The position numbers and the translations under genes are program-made. From Rhypophila decipiens (Eukaryota > Ascomycota > Sordariomycetes > Sordariales > Naviculisporaceae), in the NCBI GenBank assembly GCA_033297075.1, contig MU858149.1, forward strand, positions 62,001 to 126,000: a stretch of 64,000 nucleotides of DNA. The letters run 5' to 3'. The notes beneath the pieces were generated by a model. That model had not been told where the DNA came from and searched no databases. It saw nothing but the letters and a program-made list of their open reading frames with translations. Below, piece after piece: positions 19,642-49,820 of this stretch (positions within the stretch are counted from its first letter, which is position 1; every line of letters starts with the position of its first letter).

Positions 19642-22399
19642 ATGCCAGTGACAGAGACCGAGCTCATTTCCCTGCCTAAGAACACCGGCAGACCAGCCCA
19701 TAACAGCAGAACTGGCCAGGGCCTTGAGCTCGTGATATGACCAGCCGGATTTCCTACATATCGGCGAATACTATTACGCAGTTTCCCTGTCGTCCTATAT
19801 TGCGTTTCCTAGTCCTTCACCATTTTCGGTGTCTGCAAATACGAACGGCCCCCCTGAGCCGACGGACTTGAGCGTCCAGACTTTGTGGCCGTTCCAGGGC
19901 CAAACGACGAGATCCAAGTTCAGTGAACCTTTGGAGCAGGCCTGCTTTTATCCTCACTCGGTCTGGTGTTTCAACAAAGGCCACAGGCGAACATTCTCCA
20001 GATATTACGATTTTTTGTTATCCTTTTTGAAAAGTCGTCTTCCCATGGGAGCTTTTGGAGACCCACGGCTGTTACACATCCTCGACAACCCCGTGGATGT
20101 TAACATGATGACAACCATACAGCGGCCGGAGTCGGTCCCCACTCCAACACGGCCACAGAGCATCAGCGCGTTGGTCCATGCTACGGATATCGACATACGA
20201 GCAACTCTGACGCCGTCCACGACCGGGACTGGGACTGCCTTTGGAAATGGGCCGCGGAGAGGAGACACAAGGATTGTCGTTGTAATGTACGGACAAGGCC
20301 AGGATAACATCGTGAGTATCATCGCCGAGGTGTTGGGCAAGTCTTTTCGTCTAGGAGGCACCTTCAATGATGTCAGCCCTAGAGACCAGGATCTGGTGGT
20401 TGGTGTAGCTGGGGAAGCAGCCAAGGCAGATATCGAGGGACGAGACAGGACCTCAGTTGTGGCTATCAACACACACTGTGTCACTGTCGGGATGCCTCCC
20501 GATACTTACCTGTCCGCGCAGTGCGACTTCGAATTTCTCTACACTGAAAGCCCGTTTTCTAGGCGGGACCTCGCTCGCTTTTTGTCCCACACCCTTGGCC
20601 AAGTTAGCCACCACGAAACTCTGATGGCAAAGCCAAGGACGTACTTCATATCGACGACCTTCCCGGACGTGCATGCTGCACTTCCGAACATTGACATTCT
20701 CACCGTGGGCGCCGACGGAGTCGAAATCCGAGTTGATCTTTTAAAGGAGCCTTTAGGCGATGGTTCCTTTTCCGCCATACCCAGCCTTAGTTATGTTGGA
20801 GAGCAGGTGATGCTCCTTCGGCAAAAGACTGAATTGCCGATAATATTTACGACGAGGTGTACTCAGGAGAATGGACGATTTCCAATGGATAACCCGGACC
20901 TATATTATCAGTATCTCTACCGAGCGATACAATGGGGCGTCGAGTACATCGACGTGGAGGTGTGGCTTCCAGAGGCAATAAGGAGGAGCTTATATGAAAG
21001 GCGAGGGAACAGCCGTATCATGTCGGCATTTCACGACTTCTCCGGGACATTCAAGTGGCCGTCGAGACAGGCCGAATCCATATTCCTCAAATCACGACAG
21101 TACGCAGATATCGTCAAGATGATCGCCATTATCAACGACCACAACGAGAATTTTGAGCTCGAGTACTTCCGGTCCAAGATAAAAGCAGAGTATCCTGGCT
21201 CGCCCCCATTGTCAGCCGTCAACATGGGAGAGATCGGCCAGTTTTCTCGGACATTGAACAAAGTATTCACTCCCATCACCCATCCACTTCTTCCTCTGAT
21301 TGCTGCTCCTGGGCAGTTAAGTGCGGCAGAAATCAACCAAGCCTTAGCTTCTCTGGGCCAGCTCCCCAGGAAAAGCATATACGGCATTACTTGTGCGTCT
21401 TCGAGAAGTGCTACTCCGCAAGCACCCTTTTATGAGAAGTGTTTCAATGAACTAGGTTTACCACATCACTTTGCCGTAGTGGAACGGCTAGGGAAAGGCT
21501 CTGGTGGTGTTGAGGGTTGGTGCAACCAAAAGAACTTTGGAGGGGCATATCTGAGCCCTGCAGTTCCCTTAACAAGTCTTAACGCAGGAAACAGCTTCTT
21601 CTCCTCGCTGAGAAATGGCGCCGGGCCTATTCTTACCGAGGCTGCCCGTCTGATAGGAATGGTCGATACGATCGTGGTTCAAAACAGTTCAATGACCTCC
21701 GAGTCCTCAGCGCCGACATCACTCCCGCCAAGTCCTCGCCGAAACCAAGATGGGGAACCGTTTGGGCCAGTTGCATCGGCGCAGTTTGGCTTGCCAGCGA
21801 CGGCGTCGCTCGTTTTTGACAATGCGTCTTGGAAGGGGATATTAAGTACGTTGACAAGGGACCTCGCACCGTCGGCGTACTTTGGACGTGCCGCTGTCGT
21901 GCTAGCATCTTCTCCAGACGACGCGGCAAGCGCCCTCTTTGCTCTCAAGGCTCTGAAGGTCAGCAAAGTCTATACTATGGGATTCAAGGCTCCCCTAGCC
22001 CTTGCCAGGGATCTTGTGATTGAGCCCTTCAACAGCCTCGAGAGTCTACAAAGGGTTCGCATGGTTGGCGCTAACGGCACGGAAGACAAAGCCGGATCTG
22101 CTTCACCTTTCGTTGTTGTCAGCGCCTTGGGCCCAGAAAAGAGCAACCTGGTCGGGATGCTAGTCCGTGTTTTTGGCTCACGAGGCCCAGGAAAAACTCG
22201 AAAGGTGTTCCTCGATCTCGCCGACGGTTCTGTGCTTCGGAAAGGAGACCCGGGCTTGGTTGCTCAGCAAAGTGGATTTACCGCTTATGGGGCGGCGGAT
22301 GTTACGGCGTTTACGACGGTCGAGACGCTCCGTCTTTTGGTCGGACAGAATGTTCCGTATAGCTTTGTTCGGCTTGCTAGTGGACGGACCCCATTCTAA
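19642..22399 (+). CDS. Quinate repressor-like protein (QA-1S/QutR family), about 902 aa
   Basis: Resembles the fungal quinate-pathway repressors, which derive from the last three domains of the AROM enzyme and bind the activator instead of catalysing. Order: a degenerate shikimate-kinase-like region (about 140-300), a type I dehydroquinase-like domain (about 315-540) with [14 protein letters not shown], His in SAFHDF (about 447) and Lys in DIVKM (about 475), and a shikimate-dehydrogenase-like domain (about 560 to end). The kinase region has GQGQDN where a Walker A GKS/T is expected. The dehydrogenase block [10 protein letters not shown] lacks the catalytic Lys. The frame is open from 19736 with no ATG until 20045. 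My best model joins an upstream exon (19642-19731, [10 protein letters not shown]) through a 49-nt intron (19732-19780, weak GTGATA donor, CAG acceptor) to 19781-22399. Its 902 residues are close to the usual length, but the 5' end is uncertain. Confidence 0.7.
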
Positions 22400-28999: not shown

Positions 29000-31900
29000 A
29001 TGACGGCCCAAACCTTCGAGCCCCGGACAGTCAGTGGTTTTTCCGGAATTCATGCTTTAACCATGTCTCGTCCGCAGGTGGGCATTGAGCGACTGCCCAC
29101 TCGTCGCCTGAGCAATGAACCTCGAGAGTCGATGAACTGCAAATCATGCCGGAAACGAAAGGTATGTCGATTCTAATTTGACAAACATTTAGGAACAATT
29201 TGACCTCTTGAATAACGATACGGCGCGAGAATTCTGACCGACTGCTTTGCTTCAACAGATCAAGTGCAACCGGCTAAGGCCTGCCTGCGAGGCCTGCCAG
29301 GTTTTCCAATGTCCATGTATATACGGTACGTCGTTGTGTTCTGGTTTCCCGAGACGATTTGGATGGCTTCGGCCAGTATCTCGCTTGGTTCTCGGATATT
29401 CCCGCTCATGAATGCTGACTGGAGCTTCAGATGCTGTTCCAAAGAAAAGGGGCCCCAAAACAGATGTACTGGAAGCTTTGCTGAGGCGAGTGGATGGGCT
29501 GGAAGCAAAACTCAAAGAAGGAAAGACAGAGCCTGGAGGCAGCACGTCTGAAGGGGCCGAAACAGAAACCGCCGATAAACCATCATCCGCCACGCACAAC
29601 ACCTCTGACAGTGAGATGAAGAATCGCTCATCAGCCGATGAAGCCCGTGGTTCCGACATGGGAGAGTCCCCCATGTCATCGGCGAGCCAACAGCAGTGAG
29701 TAAACACCGAACTGATACTCGTGGCTCAGTTACCATGCTGTCGGTACGTTGTGTTCTAATCTTGTGTGTTCATGTTCAGTGAATCCTCCCCAGGGGTCGA
29801 ACCAACTGCTCTTCTCGACACATACTTTAGTCGCTTTCATGCCAAACCGTTTTACATCCTGGATGAGTCTACGTTACGACAGCGTCTTCAACTCAATCAA
29901 GTACCCGGCTACCTGATTCACGCTATTTTCGCCGTCGCAGCCAGGTAAATACATGGACGAACAGACTTGATGAGCTCTCGGCTGACAAATCAGGTACACA
30001 CTACATCCAAATGGATACCAGTCTGCAGTAAGACTCAGCGAGAGCTATGCTGCCCAGTCCAGGTCAGACATAGATACAGACGAGCCATCCATCGATGCCC
30101 TTCAAGCCTTGATGCTTCTAGTCACAGCATTTACGGCGGCTGGGAAGGGCAAGAAGGCTTACATGTTATTAAGTAAGGCGAACCTCCTCTACTATTTCCA
30201 GATCTGGTATTAACATACCTTATCAATTAGCAAACGCCGTAGGGATGGCCATGGCCCTCGAGTTACACCGCGAAATGGACATCAACGCCAGAGTAACCCC
30301 AGTCGAGCGAGAATCACGACGGCGATTATTTTGGAGCTGTTATCTTCTCGACCGATTTATGGCATGCGGTTCCAAACGACCGTCCCTCATAGCAGATAAG
30401 ACTATCCTCTTAAGACTACCGTGTTGGGCGCCAAATCATGCTACATTACCAATCGAAGGCGAGTTCTTCCAGAGCGGCTCGAATCTGCAATACTTCCAAG
30501 GGGCGGGCAAGAGGGCCCAAGGAAGCAGTGGCATGTTGATCGACATCAGTCGCATACTCGGGGTCACCAACCGGTACCTTGCAGCTGGCGGTGTGAAGGG
30601 TGACTCCCATTTTCCATGGCATTCCTTGTCCAACCTCTCCAAGATCAGACAGGAGCTGGACACTTGGGCTTCCGGCGCACAAGACGTCTTTTCCAGCCTT
30701 GACACTTTATTCGGCCAACCTGACTCCACCGCTCTTGTACTCAGCAAGTTAATATACCACCTCGTCCACTGCCTAATCTATCGGCCATTCCTCCCAATCG
30801 ACCTTTCCGAGCTGGCTGGAACGGGGCAACACCAATCTTGGCAGATCGAGGCGACGAACATGTGCTTTCTCCATGCAAATGCAATCGCCGAGCTCGTGGA
30901 ACTGGGGAAGCAGGCGGCATCGATCGAATGGCCAGCCTTTGTGGGCTATTGCATTTGCACCGCCGGAACGGTACACATCCATGGCGCACATTACAGCCGG
31001 GTGGGAAATTCCAGCGAAATGAACGTCTTCACTTCGTCTGCCGACTTTATCTCGAGGGAAATGCAGCAGCTGAGCGAACTCCGGTACGCCTGGGCTAGCG
31101 TTCAACATCAGCGAGAGACCTTACAGGGCATATATAGCGCCCACTCCGAGCTGGTCAAGAGCCTGGCCGACAATCCTATGCGGTATTCACCAGTGTTTCA
31201 TCTTGAGGATTTCTTCGATCGCTACTCAAATATCGGGGGTCCCGAAGGCCAGACCTTTAGTTTTGATGCCGCCAATCTGAGCCTGTCGGATGTTATTGTC
31301 GACTTCACGACCGATACATATCCAGGGCATGATCTCTACGCACCGCGCATCAACAGTAATGACCCAGGGCCCAGCAGACCTTCTCTCAAACGCAAGAATA
31401 CGCAACCAGCAGGCCGCAAGAGACCTGACTTGAAGAACCTTTTGTCGCTACCGAGTATTTTGAACTCATTACAAAGTCCATCATTGCCTAGCCCGGCTTC
31501 TGGCAGTCGGCATCAATTCGCCACCCCATCGATGGCGCCGGAGCAGTCGCCGAGCATCCTTCATACTCCTTCATCCCTCACAGGGCCCAATGCGCACACG
31601 AATCCCGCTGGCTTTGCTCTCCCTCAGCAATCCCCACACATGAATCAAGCTGTTTTCGGCCACGGCCACAACATATCTTCATTCAGCCCATCATTCGGCT
31701 ACGCACAGCTCCAACAGTCCGCTGTCCCAGGATCGAGCAGCACGCACCCGGCGAGTTACGATCCCATGTTTGGTGAACTGGGTACCAATGCATTCTCCAG
31801 TCCCTCCGCCTGGCAAGGAGGCGACGAGGGAGGAAAGCAGCCAGCCAATCCTCATAACCCTACTGATCCAGGTCCTAGCAATCCGGGAACTTCGGCAGCT

Positions 31901-32020
31901 GTTGAAGACAAAGATCCTTTTCTCAGTCTCCTTGAGCAGTTAGCAGAAAACGAATCAGCCTTGGGTACAGGGAGAAGCGAATTGGATTTCTTCCTTGGTG
32001 CTGGGCCATCCGGCACCTAA
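29000..32020 (+). CDS. Zn2Cys6 transcription factor with fungal-specific TF domain (875 aa)
   Basis: Six exons: 29000-29161, 29259-29325, 29431-29695, 29780-29944, 29994-30172, 30231-32020 (2628 nt, all phases close). The zinc cluster is C47-x2-C50-x6-C57-x6-C64-x2-C67-x6-C74 and is split by intron 1 after Lys54. It is followed by a linker with PKKRGPK and a leucine-rich dimerisation helix ([16 protein letters not shown]). The middle region (about 190-520) carries the fungal-specific regulatory domain with [16 protein letters not shown]. The C-terminal 300 residues are Ser/Pro/Gln/Asn-rich and end in an acidic [14 protein letters not shown] patch that may activate transcription. The cluster-plus-linker resembles regulators of carbon use such as COL-26/BglR, but I cannot confirm orthology. 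The first in-frame ATG is at 29000; 29063 is an alternative. Confidence 0.88.
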
Positions 32021-37822: not shown

Positions 37823-40800
37823 ATGGAGTCTCAACCTCCAGAAAAGTTCCCTAGCAGGGGACCTGCCGTATTTGCTGTTACCACCACTACCCTGACTGTC
37901 GCTTCGGTCTTTGTCGCCGGGAGGATGTGGTCTCGTATCGGCATCGTGCGCAGAGTTGGCTGGGACGACTATATCATAGTCTTTGCCTGGCTCATTGCCT
38001 TCTTCCTCAGTCTTACCATTGACTTTGCAACCGAGAGAGGCCTGGGCCGCCACGACGCCGACATCTCGACCCATGATAGGGCTGGCTTAAGAATGTGTGA
38101 ATACATATTCTCTGTTCTCTACGTATGTCCTAGTCTTAGCTCGAGGTACAGTTTGTCTCTGATATTCTGCTAACATGGTCAACAGAACCCAGCCCTCATG
38201 GCAACCAAGACGTCGATATTGATATTCTACCTTCGCCTGTCGAGAAACACGAACAAGATCCTTCGCATGGCGTCTTGGGTTGTTTTGGCCATTGTCAACA
38301 TTGCTGGCACCATACTCACATTCATGAACATTTTCCAGTGCCAGCCGCTAGAAGCAGCATGGGATCTCAGCGTACGACCGATTAAATGCATTCCTCTGCT
38401 CACCGAGTTCATCTGCTCAGCTCCTGTGAACGTCGTCACCGACCTGGCTATCTTGGCTCTGCCCCTCCCTGTACTCACAGGTATGCGGTTGCCGCAGAAG
38501 CAAAAGACCATATTGATCATCACCTTTACTGTGGGTATTTTCGTCACGGTGGTTGACGTGGTCAGGATCTACTATCTGCAGCAAGCCATCAATATCATTC
38601 CCACCGGCGCCTCCAACGACCCAGATGCCATATTCGGGCAAAGCGCTGGCTTTCCGTGGAACGCTTCTCTTTCCCTGATGTGGTCAGCTGTCGAGGTCAA
38701 CGTTGGAATTACTTGCGCCTGCGTGCCGACCTTGAAACCGCTGATAATCAAGATTCTTCCCGCAATGATTATTGACCCGAACAGTACACAGCAAAGCAGC
38801 ACTGGCGTTCCGGCGCCTGGGAGCCAGCAAGTCAACACCAGTGTTGGCTCTAAAACGGATCGCAGAGAAAGTAGTCAAACTGCGACATGGACGACAACCA
38901 CCATTACGAACAACACCAATACGAGCCACACACGACCTCAGGCCCCCGAGTCAGCTCATGTCAGAAATGAGGATCCAGACGAGATATCATTCAGAGACTT
39001 CCTCGCTTCGACGCCCCCGATGGACTTCCACGGCACCTGGCACAACAGGTCTTCGCTTGTGCCGGGAACACCAGGCCTCCCGCCGGCCAATACAATCCAA
39101 GAGAGCTCAGTCTATTTTGGGTTCGTCAACATGAAGAGGCCCAAGAGCATGATCCGAACTTCAGCTTCCGAGTCCTTCAAGTACTGCTCCGTCGTCAGCA
39201 TTCTTTTCTTTCTCTGGGGCTTTTCCTACGGCCTGTTGAATACTTTAAACAACGTGGTCGCCGACGTTGCGGGCATGACCCGAGCCCAGACTCTGGGGCT
39301 CACGAGTCTCTACTTCGGCGCTGGCTACCTCTTCGGCCCCATCCTTGTGGGGGAATGGCTTCTTCGTCACGATGAACACCATCGATCTACCTGGCGGGCT
39401 CGCCGACATAATCCCGAGTCGGTAGGTGGGTTCAAGGCGACCTTTATCGTCGGCCTCTTGATTTACGGAGTAGGCACCATCATGTTTTGGCCGGGGGCGG
39501 TTCTGAATGCCTATGGCGGATTCATGGTGAGCAGCTTCGTCGTTGGCTTTGGGCTGGCTGTCTTGGAGACGGCCGCCAACCCTTTCCTTGCACTCTGTGG
39601 CCCCCCGCAATATTCCGATGCGCGGTTACTTCTCGCCCAGGGTGTCCAGGCAGTTGGGAGTGTTCTGAGCGGCTTACTGGCCAACAACGTTTTCTTTACG
39701 AGGATCGAAGGGAGAAAATTTGACTCCATGACTCTCATCGACGTGCAGTGGACATACCTAGCCGCTACGCTGCTCTGTGTGTTACTGGGGCTTGTTTTCT
39801 ATTACATGCCATTACCAGAGGTTACTGACCGAGAGCTGGGTCGACTCGCCAGCCGTCTGCCGGTTGACCCCAAGAAACGTTCCATCGGTGGTATGTCGTT
39901 GAGAACGTGGTCCATTATACTTGCTGTCGCCTCCCAATGGACCTACGTGGCTGCCCAGGAGAATATGAGCATTTATTTCAACGACCTCCTAACGACGTTT
40001 GTGCCCCCCGACCGCCTTACATACAAACCACCTGGCTTTACCCTCTCAGTCCTCAATTACCTTGTCGTTGCTCACACCGTCTTCGCCATCTCTCGCTTCA
40101 CAGCAGGATTCATTGCCTACCTGTCCGTCCGGTACCCGACCGTCAAGTTCATCCCGACGCCCAGGACGATGCTTCTACTCTCGGCCATTGGTTCTGTCGT
40201 GTTCATGCTGGTGGCAGTACTAATCAAGCCATCTAATAAACCAGACATCATGGCCGTACCCATGATTCTGTTTTTCCTCGCCGAAGGGCCCATGTGGCCG
40301 CTAATATTCTCACTTGGTCTAAAGGGACAGGGGAAGAGGACGAAACGATCAGCGGCTTGGCTGACGATGGGCGCTTCTGGGCCTGCCTTTTGGCCCTTTG
40401 TTTCCTATTCTATTCTAGAAAATGGTGGGAGTATCCAGACCTCGTTCATTGTGGTTGTCGCCTTGGTGGTCGTCTCGCTATTCTACCCGCTGTTTCTGAC
40501 CTTTGTCAAAGATGCGAGGTTGATGGTCGACGCAACTATATCGTGTCAGCAAGGCACTGAGCCTGGAGGGGGCCCAGGGGTGCTCTCGAGAAGTAGAAGC
40601 GAACCGGCGGATACTACAATGACCCGGATCATTGCCGCAAGAAAGAGGCAGCGGTCCAAGGAACGGGAACGAGACGAAAAGAACCAGCGAAGGGCATCCA
40701 ATGGTGGGTTGTTTGGGAAATTCTCGTGGCCAGTGGTGGCAAGAAGGGCGACAAAAAGCGGAGGAGGAGGAGGAGGAAAGGAACTTGAGAGTATCACCAC

Positions 40801-41023
40801 TGCGATAGAAGGAACAGGAGGCGATCTCGACATGACCCTCTCGCCGTTGACAGAGCACCATGAGGGGCATGAGGTGGCCGACCAGACACTGAAAGAGAAG
40901 GCTTTGGATCGACAGGAGGCTGCCAGTGGAAGTGATGTGATACAGCCGCCGGAACCGACACGGCAACCGGAGCGTGCGCCTTGGGACGATACCGTCTTGG
41001 ACACGAAAATTCTTGAGAATTGA
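37823..41023 (+). CDS. Fusion of a PTH11-like 7-TM receptor domain with a FucP/FHS-type MFS transporter (1045 aa)
   Basis: Exons 37823-38122 and 38186-41023 (intron 63 nt, GTATGT/CAG, phase 0). Residues about 10-300 form the fungal rhodopsin/PTH11-like domain with seven hydrophobic helices and family marks GWDDYIIVFAWL, FQCQPLEAAWD, LALPLPVLTGMRLP and WSAVEVNVGITCACVPTLKPL. A Ser/Thr-rich cytosolic linker (about 300-430, ending VYFGFVNMKRPKSM) leads straight into a major-facilitator domain of the fucose/glucose-galactose permease type (about 430-870) beginning FFLWGFSYGLLNTLNN, with about 12 helices. A basic, Gly-rich cytosolic tail (873-1045) follows. Both domains lie in one exon of 2838 nt with no in-frame stop, so this is not two genes run together by a missed intron. 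PTH11-like proteins sense surfaces or nutrients; FHS permeases move sugars with protons. A transceptor role is inferred. The ATG at 37823 is the first in frame. Confidence 0.88.
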
Positions 41024-44078: not shown

Positions 44079-46204
44079 ATGACCGTCACCAGTGCCGCCG
44101 ATGACACCGGCCACCACGCTCAACACGGAGGAGATAATGAGAGCTTCTCAACGGCCGCTACATATACGGCAACTGAGAATACTCCATTATTAGGATCTCA
44201 AACACCAATATCCTCCGACACCGTGAACGATTGCTCGGCTCTCACCGACCCAGAGGATGGCGTCACGCAAGCTCTTTCAGATCAAGATGAAGACGCATCC
44301 AGTATTTCATCCTCAGATGAGACATGGTCAAGGGGCAGGGCGGTTTGTATCATTCTGAGCATGTGGGCATTGATATTCCTTCAAGGTGAGTCTCACCTCA
44401 ATCCTGGTTGCAAAATGAGTTTATGAGCTGGCAGTCTCTAATCAACATGGGGACGTATCAGCAAGCAACATGAGCGGCATAACAACCACCCAGTCCACCA
44501 TCGCCGCCGATCTCGACGCCTACGAGTACGCAATGTGGTTCACGAGCTCGTACATGATGACCATGTCCTCCATCTCACCCCTCATGGGCCGGTTGTCCAT
44601 GATTTTTACTCCAGGCACCATGATTCTGATTTCATCTTTTTTCTTTTCCGCTGGTGCGGTTGTCACCTCTCAAGCTCAAAGCTTTGCTGTGTTCATCCTC
44701 GGGAGGATCTTGGTCGGTGTCGGCGGTGGTGGCATTCTCACCTTGGCCATGATTTTGGTCATTCAATTGACCTCCAAAAAGAGGAGAGGGCTCTGGATTG
44801 GGTTGACTAATGCTGTGAGTTTTCCATGCTGTTGTTTGGCGTGCTTATAAATAGCACAAAAGCTGCGATATGCTTCATTGATGCTAATTTCTGCAACAGG
44901 GCTTTACCGTCAGTGTATCAATGGGTGCCTTGATCTTTGGTGCTCTCCTGCCGGTTATGGGATGGGTATGTTTTGCTCCAAACCTCTCCTTATCATCCAT
45001 GAATAAACTAACAAGCCCCATTTTACCTTGTATTAGCGGGCTCTCTTCCTCGTGCAGTGCCCCATTGGTATCCTCGGCGGATTGGGCGTCTATATGAGCA
45101 TGCCCTCCTCAATCCTCCGAGCAAAGGGCTTCAAAGAAACCAAAACCACGGCCCAGAAGCTCGCAAGCATTGACTATGCTGGTGCTGTGACCTTGGTATG
45201 TCGACAAGCAACCTCCATACCTCCATATCACCTCTGAAGCCAACTAACCGTGAAATCAGACCCTAACAACGGTACTCTTCCTCTACGGCCTCGCAGGCAC
45301 CCAAATCCAACCCACTCCAATCCTCATATCCCTGCCCTGCCTATTCCTCTTCCTATTTATCGAGTCCCGCGCGCCAGATCCCATCCTCCCCCTATCAATC
45401 CTCCGCTCCCGAGGAATTCTCCTATCCTGCATAGCCCAGCTCTTCCTAATGGCCGTCCGATGGACGGTCCTCTTCTACGCCCCCATCTTCGTCCTCGCCG
45501 TACGTGGCCTATCCCCGGCGATGGCAGGATCCGTCTTAATCCCCACCAACATTGGCTTCGGCCTGGGCGGTCTTGTCGTGGGCTGGCTACACATCCGACG
45601 CTCGGGAGATTTCTACTCGCCTTCTCTAATCACAATCGTGTCCTTTGCAGCCTTTATTCTGTCTCTAGCCTACACGAGCAACTTGGAAACAGGCTGGTGG
45701 GTCTATATACTCATGTTGTTTGGAAATGGTTGGTCCACGGGGGCGCAGCTGAATTATAGTCTTGCGCATTTGTTGCACTTGTCGAGGCCGGAGACGCATT
45801 TCATCGTTACGGGCTTGTTGGCTACCTTTCGGGGGTTTGCGGGGAGTTTTGGGACGAGTATTGGTGGCGGCGTGTTTAATCGCACTTTGAGGGGGTTACT
45901 TGGTCAGGGATTTAGGAGGTTGGATGGAGGAGGGCAGTTGAGTAAGGCCCGGGAGGAGCTCATCAAGGTGTTGATTGGGAGTCCGGCCAAGGTTTATGAG
46001 GAGGGCTTGTTGAATGCCGCTGAGAGGGAGATTGCGGTTCTTGGGTATGAGGCTACCCTTAGAGTGTTGTATACTGGTGCTGCGGCGGTTTGTGTCTTGG
46101 TTTTTGTGTTACAGGCTGGTACGGGGTGGAATGCGCCGCGTCCGGTGGTTAGTGAGGAAGACATTGAGGACGAGGTCGAGGAGGCTGTTGCTGATGGGCT
46201 ATGA
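44079..46204 (+). CDS. MFS transporter, Vba/Fnx1-like drug or basic amino acid type (609 aa)
   Basis: Proton-coupled major-facilitator permease. Exons: 44079-44385, 44462-44814, 44900-44965, 45037-45195, 45260-46204 (1830 nt). After an acidic, Ser/Thr-rich cytosolic N-terminus of about 90 residues come helices with the DHA2-type signatures QSTIAADLDAYEYAMWF, LMGRLSMIF (motif A region), GRILVGVGGGGILTLAMIL (motif B region) and ALIFGALLPVMGW (motif C region), then about nine further helices and an acidic tail (EEDIEDEVEEA). The N-terminal TENTPLL is an acidic-dileucine-type sorting motif seen in vacuolar Vba proteins, which suggests a vacuolar membrane location; substrate is unknown. The frame extends upstream to a GTG at 44037, so the ATG at 44079 is preferred. 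Exons 3 and 4 are too short to stand out alone but are needed to rebuild the motif C helix. Confidence 0.9.
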
Positions 46205-46976: not shown

Positions 46977-49820
46977 CTAAGCCTTAGCCGCCGCAGCAGC
47001 GGACGCAGAACCAGCCCCTGACGTCGAAGCACCAGCGACAGAAGTCGCCGCAGCAGATTTACTCTTCCTCCTAACAGGCTGATAGACATCATTAAAGTTC
47101 ATCGACACACCCAAGAACCGCATATCCACATCAGGCTGATACGCCAAATCGCCCAGCAAAACCTGCAGCCTTGTGCGAAACGTCAAACCCAGCTGTCTCA
47201 ACCTCTCTTGCAAGGCGGGGAACTCGGACTTAACAGCCCCCGCAACATTACCAAAGACATCATCCCCACCATCATGATGATACTGACTTTCATGTCTATT
47301 AGCATTCCGCATCAAACCAGCCGCATCGACCTCCTGACGTCGCGTATAGTCCGACACAGACCAGCTATACAACCCATCGACGCTATCCCGATACGCAAGC
47401 ATATTTCTTAGCAGCTCACTAAGTTGAATCATGTACGAGTTCCTGTCCTCTGCCGCCTCGGCCGTCTCTCTACCCAGCGCGGCCGCTTCCCGAAGCGAAT
47501 CATGATACTGCCGTCTCCGGGCACCCAACAAACCCTTGTGCGTGATCGAGGTGAGGTACTTTGTATGCGCCGTGATCAAATCATCCAACGTACAATCTTC
47601 CTTGTGGATATTCTTCTGCAGCTCGGTCCAGCTGCTCTCGATGACCTCGAAGAGGATGTAATACTGCAGCTGACCAACAAAGTGGATCATCTCGGCCAAC
47701 ACACCGCGGGTGCTCTTCCAGGTTTGGAGCACATTTTCGTCGTCGGACTGGAGAACGCCCCGGGACCCGGTCATGCATTTCCGCCATGTTGATTGCAAGG
47801 CAAACTCGACGCGCTTGATGCGCCAGAGAAAGTTGAACACCTTGAGATATTGTCGGTTGCCCCACTCGGTGACGACCACGTCGACGGGCGCGTCGATCTT
47901 GTACTCGAGCGTGAAGCAGTCCCAGCCTATGTCGCCGTGGCTGAGCTGTAGCATGCGAGCGTCTAGGCGGCGGAGGACCTCGTCGCTGTCGTACTGCGCG
48001 TTGGAGCCGCGGATTGCGTGCTCGAGCTGGGCCGTCAAGGTGTGTCGGTATTGCGCTCCGGCTGGACGGTCCAGGTTGGCGGCGAGAGACTCCATTAAGA
48101 GAGCGATGAAGTCGCCTTGGCCGAGTAAGATGTAGTTCTTCAGAGCCTGCAGGTGGTCGAACAAGTGGAACCGTGTGCTCATGAGCTTCATCAGCCGCTG
48201 CATGGTGGTCTTGTATGCCTCGTCGATCCAGGTTTCTAGAGTCGCTGTGTCGCCGTATTTGAGCTCCTTGGACGAAGTCTTGCTGTATGCTTCTACCCAT
48301 TGGCTGTCGCCACAGCTGTGACGGATGAAGTTCAGTGATTTGCCGATTAGAAACACCTTTTGGGCAAAGTCTGAGGTGATTATGCTGGGCACCATGGCGT
48401 CGACGACCTCGTATTTGGAATTCCAGACGCTCGTTTGGCCCCTAGCCTTGGTCTCCTTCTGGGCTTCGTCGTTCGGGCTCTGCTCCCTCACAAAGAACTC
48501 GAGGTGTGGGTCTGATAGCTCTCCGTCATAGATCCAGCGGCGCAATATGTCGTAGAAAGGACGCGTGACATCGGCAAGGAGGCGTTCGGCAAATGCAGCT
48601 ACCACAGGGTCGCCGTGCGAGGTCGAGAAGCCGTGTATCAGGCTGATCAGCTGCCCACCTCGCTTGTTGTTGCTCTCTTCTGCTATCAGGGACATCAACC
48701 TGAGCCCCATCGTCGCTTCCCGGGTCCATACCACGCAGCGCTTCAGGGTAACTCCGGCCTTGCCAATGCCACCGCGGGGAGCGTTGGCATCAAGTGAGGA
48801 GAGCGCACGCCGGATCTGACCCTCGAGTGTAGCAACCAGCGTGAGATAAGAGCGTAGTTCCGTACTGATGGCAGCTCGCAAGCTCTGGTCTAATAAGCCT
48901 CTGGCTGGTGACTTGACGAATGTGCTGAGACCCCTGTACAGTAAAGATGGCTCTGCAAGAGTATGTAAAAGCGATATTATAGGAGGTGGAAGTGTAGGGG
49001 GAAGTTTTAGAGTCGTGTCACTGGCGAAGGGAAGTGTGGTAGACGAGAGCCCTTGAAGAGTAAAGGGCAAGTCTCTCAGAAGAGCCGTCTCAGACGGTTC
49101 ATAGTCCACAGAATTGTCAGCGAGGAGCATGGACTTCAACGAGACATCCCTTCTTGCGTCCTTCTTTGGGGAGGCTGTCTCCTGAGCAGGTACTGGCTCC
49201 TCCTCCAGGCTCCTCCTTGGCCGTTCAGTAGGCAGCTTCTTCAGTCCTCCAGGCGCAAAGGCGTCAGCCAGCGCATCTTCCTCTGGTATGGTGGCCGGGG
49301 TAGAGTTCTTGGAGGTCCTCTCCTTGTCTGTAAAGCGCGGCGGCGGAGGCGCCCTCTGAACAGGTTGCCTCAGGGGACTCAGAGGGAGCGGTTCACTGGG
49401 ATCTGGCGAGTCGGAGAGCTGATAGAGCAGATAAAGAATTGCCCATTTTTGGCTGAGGACTGGGAGGGACAGCAGCCGAGTGTACAGGTTCGAGAATCGC
49501 AGTGCCTGGCTGGGATTGCTCTGGATGAGCTTCCGCTTGATAAGGTCGGAAGCATGGTTTACATCGGCCGAGATGGAAGGGTTTGGAGGTCTGAGAAGCA
49601 AAGACAGAAGAGACTTTTAGTTATCATGTTCACTTTTATATTTCTTGTTTCTTGAGTAAATAAGAACCGCTTACTCGTCAATTATAGACTTGACAATCTG
49701 AAAGCAGGCATCATGTCTATCTTGGGCTGTCTGCTCGTCGTCGCGCGGATTACTGGGAATCAGGTGGTTGATGAGGGAGTCGATCGCATTGGAGATTCGG
49801 TGGTTACGGTCTTGGGACAT
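46977..49820 (-). CDS. SPC98: Gamma-tubulin complex component 3 (GCP3/Spc98), 919 aa
   Basis: Microtubule-nucleating subunit that binds gamma-tubulin at the spindle pole body. Minus-strand exons 49820-49675 and 49590-46977, intron 84 nt (GTAAGC/CAG), 2760 coding nt. The N-terminal 100 residues (ISNAIDSLINHLIP, FSNLYTRLLSLPVLSQKW) match the GCP3-specific helical region. The GRIP1 region begins near ALLRDLPFTLQG and includes WNSKYEVVDAMVPSIIT followed by KVFLIGKSLNFIRHSCGD, a block closer to GCP3 than to GCP2. The GRIP2 region includes DHLQALKNYILLGQGDF and PVDVVVTEWGNRQYLKVFNFLW, then the FRTRLQVLLGDL segment. The C-terminus is an Ala/Ser-rich tail. Length agrees with fungal GCP3. Confidence 0.94.

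Follow-up and report, generated by a model that had tools for sequence, protein, structure and literature searches.

A candidate receptor-permease polypeptide of filamentous fungi: a Pth11-like seven-helix domain joined to a FucP-like transporter domain with asparagine at the proton-coupling position

Human LYCHOS/GPR155 carries a PIN-like transporter and a GPCR-like domain in one chain. It serves lysosomal sterol sensing and differs from the protein described here, encoded in the ascomycete Rhypophila decipiens, in having an unrelated transporter fold and the opposite domain order. Among fungi, the transceptors Pho84, Gap1 and Neurospora CDT-1/2 employ a transporter fold for sensing, with signaling that is separable from transport, as set out in passages of two publications (PMC3824880, PMC12892961). 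In those proteins one transporter fold performs both tasks, whereas here a receptor-type membrane domain is added. In the case of yeast Pho84, mutation of a proposed proton-binding Asp is described in an excerpt as abolishing transport while leaving signaling largely intact (PMC3824880). The GprK-type hybrid GPCR likewise joins a fungal 7-TM receptor to a second functional domain, which in GprK, as characterized in part of one source (PMC5008803), is a cytoplasmic RGS domain and here is a 12-TM permease.

Pth11-like/PF20684 proteins of Pezizomycotina share the PF20684 domain, seven helices and basic inner loops with the fused protein, the C-terminus of which, unlike theirs, runs on into a permease; no Pfam match to a CFEM domain was found in the receptor-permease protein, which sets it apart from Pth11 proteins in the narrow sense that bear one. 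In N. crassa, GPR-25 is given in a passage of PMC4683645 as the sole CFEM-bearing GPCR, so that most Pth11-related proteins there are without CFEM, and the same passage source reports cellulose growth phenotypes in three N. crassa Pth11-class mutants. Physical binding of a G-alpha by M. oryzae Pth11 is described in an excerpt of PMC7701987. On the permease side, the nearest solved relative indicated by Pfam and fold searches is FucP of E. coli, an L-fucose:H+ symporter of the FHS family (PDB 3o7p, 3o7q). Asp46 of FucP is believed to be essential to proton-dependent transport and Glu135 is a possible element of substrate recognition, and the published model contains a hydrogen bond between Y365 and E135 (PMC3824880, in part). 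The D46N variant is transport-deficient and does not translocate H+, yet it gives L-fucose-specific binding currents, while replacement of Asn162 by Ala drastically reduces transport (both from passages of PMC8784342).

The window analyzed here is a stretch of 64,000 nucleotides from an R. decipiens assembly of 45.7 Mb in 408 contigs. Within it, positions 37823-41023 of the plus strand yield, as a spliced ORF, one protein of 1045 residues in two exons, which in a protein database search matched the annotated R. decipiens protein P0001 (Sordariomycetes, Sordariales, Naviculisporaceae) along all 1045 residues with 100% identity. Exon 1 (37823..38122, +; ATG at 37823) encodes residues 1-100, comprising receptor helices 1 and 2 with the first part of helix 3, and matches PF20684 with E 2.2e-10. 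The intron (38123..38185, +) measures 63 nt, has the form GTATGT...CAG with a CTAAC-like branch site, and is the sole one of six donor/acceptor pairs tried by script that leaves the frame open to the end. Exon 2 (38186..41023, +; 2838 nt, TGA at 41021-41023) begins inside receptor helix 3 (residues 83-119 in the model) and continues through the linker and permease into the tail. A first-pass annotation, based on the letters of the DNA, had described a single 2838-nt exon without a stop from the third receptor helix through the MFS domain, which the coordinates match exactly, and intact family marks in both halves, all of which (CQPLEAAWD, NVGITCACVPTLKPL and FFLWGFSYGLLNTLNN) were found; its central proposal, a receptor and a permease fused in one chain, is borne out by the single ORF and by full-length matches elsewhere.

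The product is predicted to be a PF20684 seven-helix receptor domain of the Pth11-like superfamily joined to a FucP-like MFS permease. The PF20684 scores in the two exons are 151.4 and 40.9 bits (Pfam gathering cut-off 27), and what remains of the rhodopsin-type fungal 7-TM receptor after exon 1 occupies 38186..38773 (+; residues 101-296; PF20684 E 4e-44), with model helices up to residue 295. The FucP-like 12-helix permease domain lies at 39176..40510 (+; residues 431-875) and has a Pfam MFS_1 match at E 1.7e-14. AlphaFold2 modeling of the full protein, with broken helices counted as one, predicts 7 + 12 membrane helices, in agreement with an earlier estimate of about 19; seven of them precede the linker, and the 12 of the MFS domain are mostly confident. 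Fold searches against the PDB returned MFS proteins in all 50 rows shown by each, so they bear little on the receptor part. The receptor's inner loops carry net charges of +3, +4 and +3 and its outer loops 0, 0, 0 and -2, a distribution that fits an N-out/C-in orientation and thereby predicts that the linker and the MFS N-terminus lie in the cytosol. The order of the conserved polypeptide is, by prediction, a Pth11-like 7-TM receptor, a cytosolic linker, a FucP/FHS-type MFS domain and a cytosolic tail.

The linker (38774..39175, +; residues 297-430) has a variable, disordered middle, with pLDDT under 50 for residues 302-400, and includes a DFLTTP-like stretch, here FRDFLASTPP (residues 369-378), and the conserved segment SVYFGFVNMKRPKSM (residues 408-422). 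Regular-expression searches of 182 linkers recovered (V/I)(Y/F)FGF in 152 and RPKSM in 82; the DFLTTP-like motif, present in 72, is not universal by that test. The tail with the stop codon (40511..41023, +; residues 876-1045) contains one predicted helix at 912-934. A long cytosolic tail had also been proposed earlier; it does exist, but it is mostly disordered in the model and poorly conserved, with a mean top-residue frequency of 0.24, compared with 0.38 for the linker.

Conservation of the fusion was followed in protein databases. In the whole-protein search, both halves were covered by at least 80% in 111 of the best 120 of 1220 matches listed; in the remaining nine, the permease was 98-100% covered and the receptor 67-76%. 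The permease-half search was confined to proteins of 826 aa or less, hence favoring truncated proteins, and among its best 120 of 1856 matches listed, five cover more than 70% of both halves, while in 90 receptor helix 7 is joined to 70% or more of the permease. The 30 that fail the helix-7 test include P0187 and P0203, in which the receptor is present and the permease reaches only 65-69%; the other 28 are without most or all of helix 7. Most of the 30 look truncated, beginning at a point inside the family's own frame. Hosts named among the listed matches are Sordariomycetes and at least one Leotiomycete, Cadophora gregata, and the genera Neurospora, Sordaria, Trichoderma and Podospora carry the fused gene. 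We take the genera of the listed matches to include members of Sordariales, Coniochaetales, Diaporthales, Magnaporthales, Xylariales, Glomerellales, Hypocreales and Ophiostomatales. These results, with the conserved part of the linker and one clade for each half (see below), uphold the suggestion that the fusion is conserved in other Sordariomycetes; a pattern of only stand-alone proteins in close relatives, against which the suggestion was checked, is not what the databases contain, and a local accident was rejected, as fused homologues recur across species.

The gene model itself was questioned on the same material. Two adjacent genes might have been merged, as Met 416 or Met 422 offers a possible start for a stand-alone permease, some metagenomic ORFs begin at the matching Met (P0121, P0197, P0229), and four Ophiostomatales models are permease-only; yet the junction lies inside a single open exon, ORFs of further species and of metagenomic sequences are joined in the same way, conservation extends to the linker end, and 46 of 240 proteins (both searches pooled), all shorter than 830 aa, have the first exon 2 Met as their start, which an intron-blind gene caller would be expected to produce. 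Such an artefact is extremely improbable. An open linker of 134 codons arose by chance in 3.3% of first-order simulations with the linker's own composition and in 0.9% with that of the upstream flank, figures which, taken alone, are only moderate evidence against chance; the strong evidence is that proteins of other species match the whole 1045 aa. Gene-model artefact and chance open frame were both rejected on the single open exon, the whole-length matches and the conserved linker end. The four Ophiostomatales models (P0163, P0165, P0166 and P0221) have no receptor and lack at least permease helix 1, and could represent model error or true fission; two other Sporothrix proteins, P0091 and P0132, contain PF20684 and MFS_1.

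Both halves are under similar constraint, with mean top-residue frequencies of 0.75 and 0.73 and mean pairwise divergences of 0.29 and 0.35, so that neither looks as if it were decaying. A tree built from 73 permease domains places the 42 fused rows in one clade with an SH-aLRT value of 100, apart from 21 stand-alone fungal rows (87) and 10 bacterial rows; the branch to the fused clade is long, at 3.09 changes per column, and the program cautions that such branches may be grouped falsely. A second tree, of 50 receptor domains, unites 24 fused rows in one clade (SH-aLRT 99) against 26 receptors of the own genome. Between the two halves, pairwise distances are correlated with r 0.80 (56 of 111 rows). 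This pattern fits a single fusion followed by vertical descent, although the trees are quick ones and no proof. Within the R. decipiens genome, 44 of 119 candidates were scored and included no second fused copy; the 44 consisted of the gene itself, two pieces of a permease on contig C9 and 41 receptor-only matches; a search of the genome for the FFLWGF DNA pattern gave 0 matches and is uninformative as a test. The receptor relatives of the same genome (28 loci) are 23-33% identical to the fused receptor over the longest match, and the stand-alone permease paralogue on C9 shares 98% identity with P0241 of Rhypophila sp. PSN 637. Manual reading of the listed matches gives 23 or more named species or strains that have a fused protein alongside a stand-alone one, and in these the stand-alone permease could perform sugar uptake.

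To compare the permease halves at the level of single residues, 226 of 240 were aligned (14 with coverage of 85% or less were dropped; some of the 226 are truncated ORFs without the receptor part) with the own-genome paralogue, 40 bacterial relatives, E. coli FucP and 120 stand-alone fungal permeases; the last are the best 120 matches to one fungal paralogue and no census of fungal FHS proteins. They belong to the same MFS family and the same genomes as the fused protein, from which they are set apart by a separate clade and the absence of a receptor. At the position of FucP D46, the H+-coupling Asp in TM1, the R. decipiens protein has N452 (codon 39239..39241, +). In the fused family N occupies this position in 211 of 226 and D in 4; three members show a gap, three have F and two G, and Y, H and S occur once each. 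D is found in 120/120 stand-alone fungal and 39/40 bacterial sequences, the bacterial exception (L071) being a distant match. With Asp, F, G, Y, H, S or a gap in 15 of 226, Asn at the D46 position is not absolute, and the D-to-N changes across the family may amount to one event, related sequences being non-independent. The four members with Asp at the lost proton site are P0094 together with P0059, P0062 and P0069 (Cytospora by name), and a divergent group (P0173, P0176, P0178) has Phe at position 452 and lacks the FFLWGFSYGLLN motif.

Much of the remaining polar path is kept. The equivalent of E135 in TM4, E561 (codon 39566..39568, +), is E in 225/226 fused, 120/120 stand-alone and 39/40 bacterial proteins, and the equivalents of Q159, Q267, Y270, Q274 and R312 are retained in at least 220 of 226 fused permease halves. 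At sequence level, the H+-coupling Asp has been lost, and most of the sugar path's other polar residues persist. Other positions have been remodeled relative to FucP: at that of N162 in TM5 the fused family has Gln in 223/226 (here Q588, codon 39647..39649, +), while Asn occupies it in 119/120 stand-alone and 40/40 bacterial sequences. In light of the effect of the Ala replacement in FucP, this Gln may mean another ligand. Y365 has become mostly Trp (W 190, F 30, Y 6); as the stand-alone proteins also lack the Tyr (F in 120/120), its loss is not special to the fusion. S362-I363 are replaced by G-P in the fused family (224 and 226 of 226), so that P802 is found in 226/226, and the T367 position is likewise altered. 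Taken with the Gln at N162, the changes at S362, I363 and T367 leave room for a changed or even abolished binding of sugar, and no substrate should be assigned from the database name 'fucose permease'. The fused protein also differs from FucP in the attached receptor and in a lengthened TM2-TM3 loop (G489-F516, GEWLLRHDEHHR...GGF; 39350..39433, +), whose median length is 27 in the fused family versus 10 in stand-alone proteins and which contains HDEH, a His/Asp/Glu-rich stretch, in 110/226 versus 0/120.

Asn at the coupling position points to a sensor or to a carrier that lacks proton coupling. The earlier proposal of a sensor-transporter therefore stands in part: receptor and permease do share one chain, but H+-linked sugar carriage is disfavored by the Asn in 211/226. 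In one alternative, the protein is a true sensor-transporter and a redesigned proton symporter in which E561 or E800 takes the proton; both are highly conserved in the fused family (225/226 and 219/226), but E800 is also E in 119/120 of the stand-alone proteins that keep the Asp and so does not look compensatory, and we regard this as quite improbable. We favor, with a probability of roughly 0.4, a sugar receptor in one piece in which proton symport has been lost and the 7-TM half may do the signaling. In the proposed mechanism, the permease half would bind a sugar or sugar-like molecule without H+ symport and thereby sense a ligand from inside the chain, the resulting change in its conformation would pass to the 7-TM half through the short conserved linker end (YFGFVNMKRPKSM), and the 7-TM half would then give a heterotrimeric G protein signal, as has been proposed for Pth11-like receptors. 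The G-protein output is extrapolated from Pth11-like proteins, on the strength of a passage in PMC7701987. What favors a ligand sensor over a proton symporter is that the natural Asn reproduces FucP D46N, along with the separation of signaling from transport in the Pho84 Asp mutant.

The main rival of the sensor reading is an uncoupled carrier, with which the Asn alone is still compatible in the form of facilitated diffusion. In this alternative, the permease half moves a sugar or other metabolite without proton coupling, by facilitated diffusion or exchange, and the receptor senses something different and gates or sorts the carrier. The 12 mostly confident MFS helices and the retained path residues, including the E135 and R312 equivalents, would suit a working carrier, and a uniporter would be consistent with the lost coupling Asp. 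This alternative leaves the need for a fixed 1:1 receptor without explanation, however, and the remodeled N162 position and TM10 segment (G-P for S362-I363) speak against it; we regard it as somewhat less likely than the sensor. The MFS half could instead be a ligand-free structural or trafficking partner, a scaffold or pseudotransporter beside a receptor that alone senses. The long branch to the fused clade and the many altered positions agree with such a role, but the strong conservation within the clade, path residues included, speaks for a retained binding cavity, and we consider it improbable. Returning to the receptor that senses through its permease half, it would bear on sugar sensing by filamentous fungi and on the ligands of the large orphan Pth11-like class, as a receptor with a sugar-binding partner in the same chain would point directly to a class of ligand. 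With the natural D-to-N change, sensing could be cleanly examined apart from transport, and Neurospora, Sordaria, Trichoderma and Podospora, which carry the gene, are genera in laboratory use.

In public databases, the fused proteins go by the names 'major facilitator', 'fucose permease' or 'rhodopsin domain'. The sequences themselves are already known in this sense, as are the related kinds, namely transceptors, 7-TM/RGS hybrids and LYCHOS. New here is the occupation of the FucP D46 position by Asn across most permease halves of the fused family. A bolder reading, which we put at somewhat below even odds, is a fungal family with a GPCR-type receptor and an MFS sugar sensor in one chain, symport lost through a D-to-N change that in FucP separates binding from transport, maintenance as a unit in at least two classes, and a build that would escape a published GPCR census. 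A large GPCR census, as described in part of PMC12842992, retained only proteins with 6-7 TM helices and required more than 75% mutual coverage in its BLAST step, filters by which fused proteins would be discarded. No description of a Pth11-like receptor fused to a permease was found in the part of the openly licensed literature that was surveyed, a result that does not prove absence, and term look-ups in PMC12842992, PMC4683645, PMC3664084, PMC13308352 and PMC11943073 turned up nothing on such a fusion. Pams1 of M. oryzae was rejected as a known case, being described in a passage as a 14-TM MFS protein (PMC9500233).

Four further features were noted in the window. Upstream of the fused gene, 30245-32020 contains a fungal-specific transcription factor domain. 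An 856-aa ORF at 19829-22399 has a type I 3-dehydroquinase domain and is possibly an AROM- or quinate-repressor-like protein. Downstream, 45449-46204 gives a second MFS_1 match that falls below the Pfam cut-off (27.8 versus 33.4 bits), and the ORF at 46977-49601 carries the N- and C-terminal domains of a gamma-tubulin complex protein.
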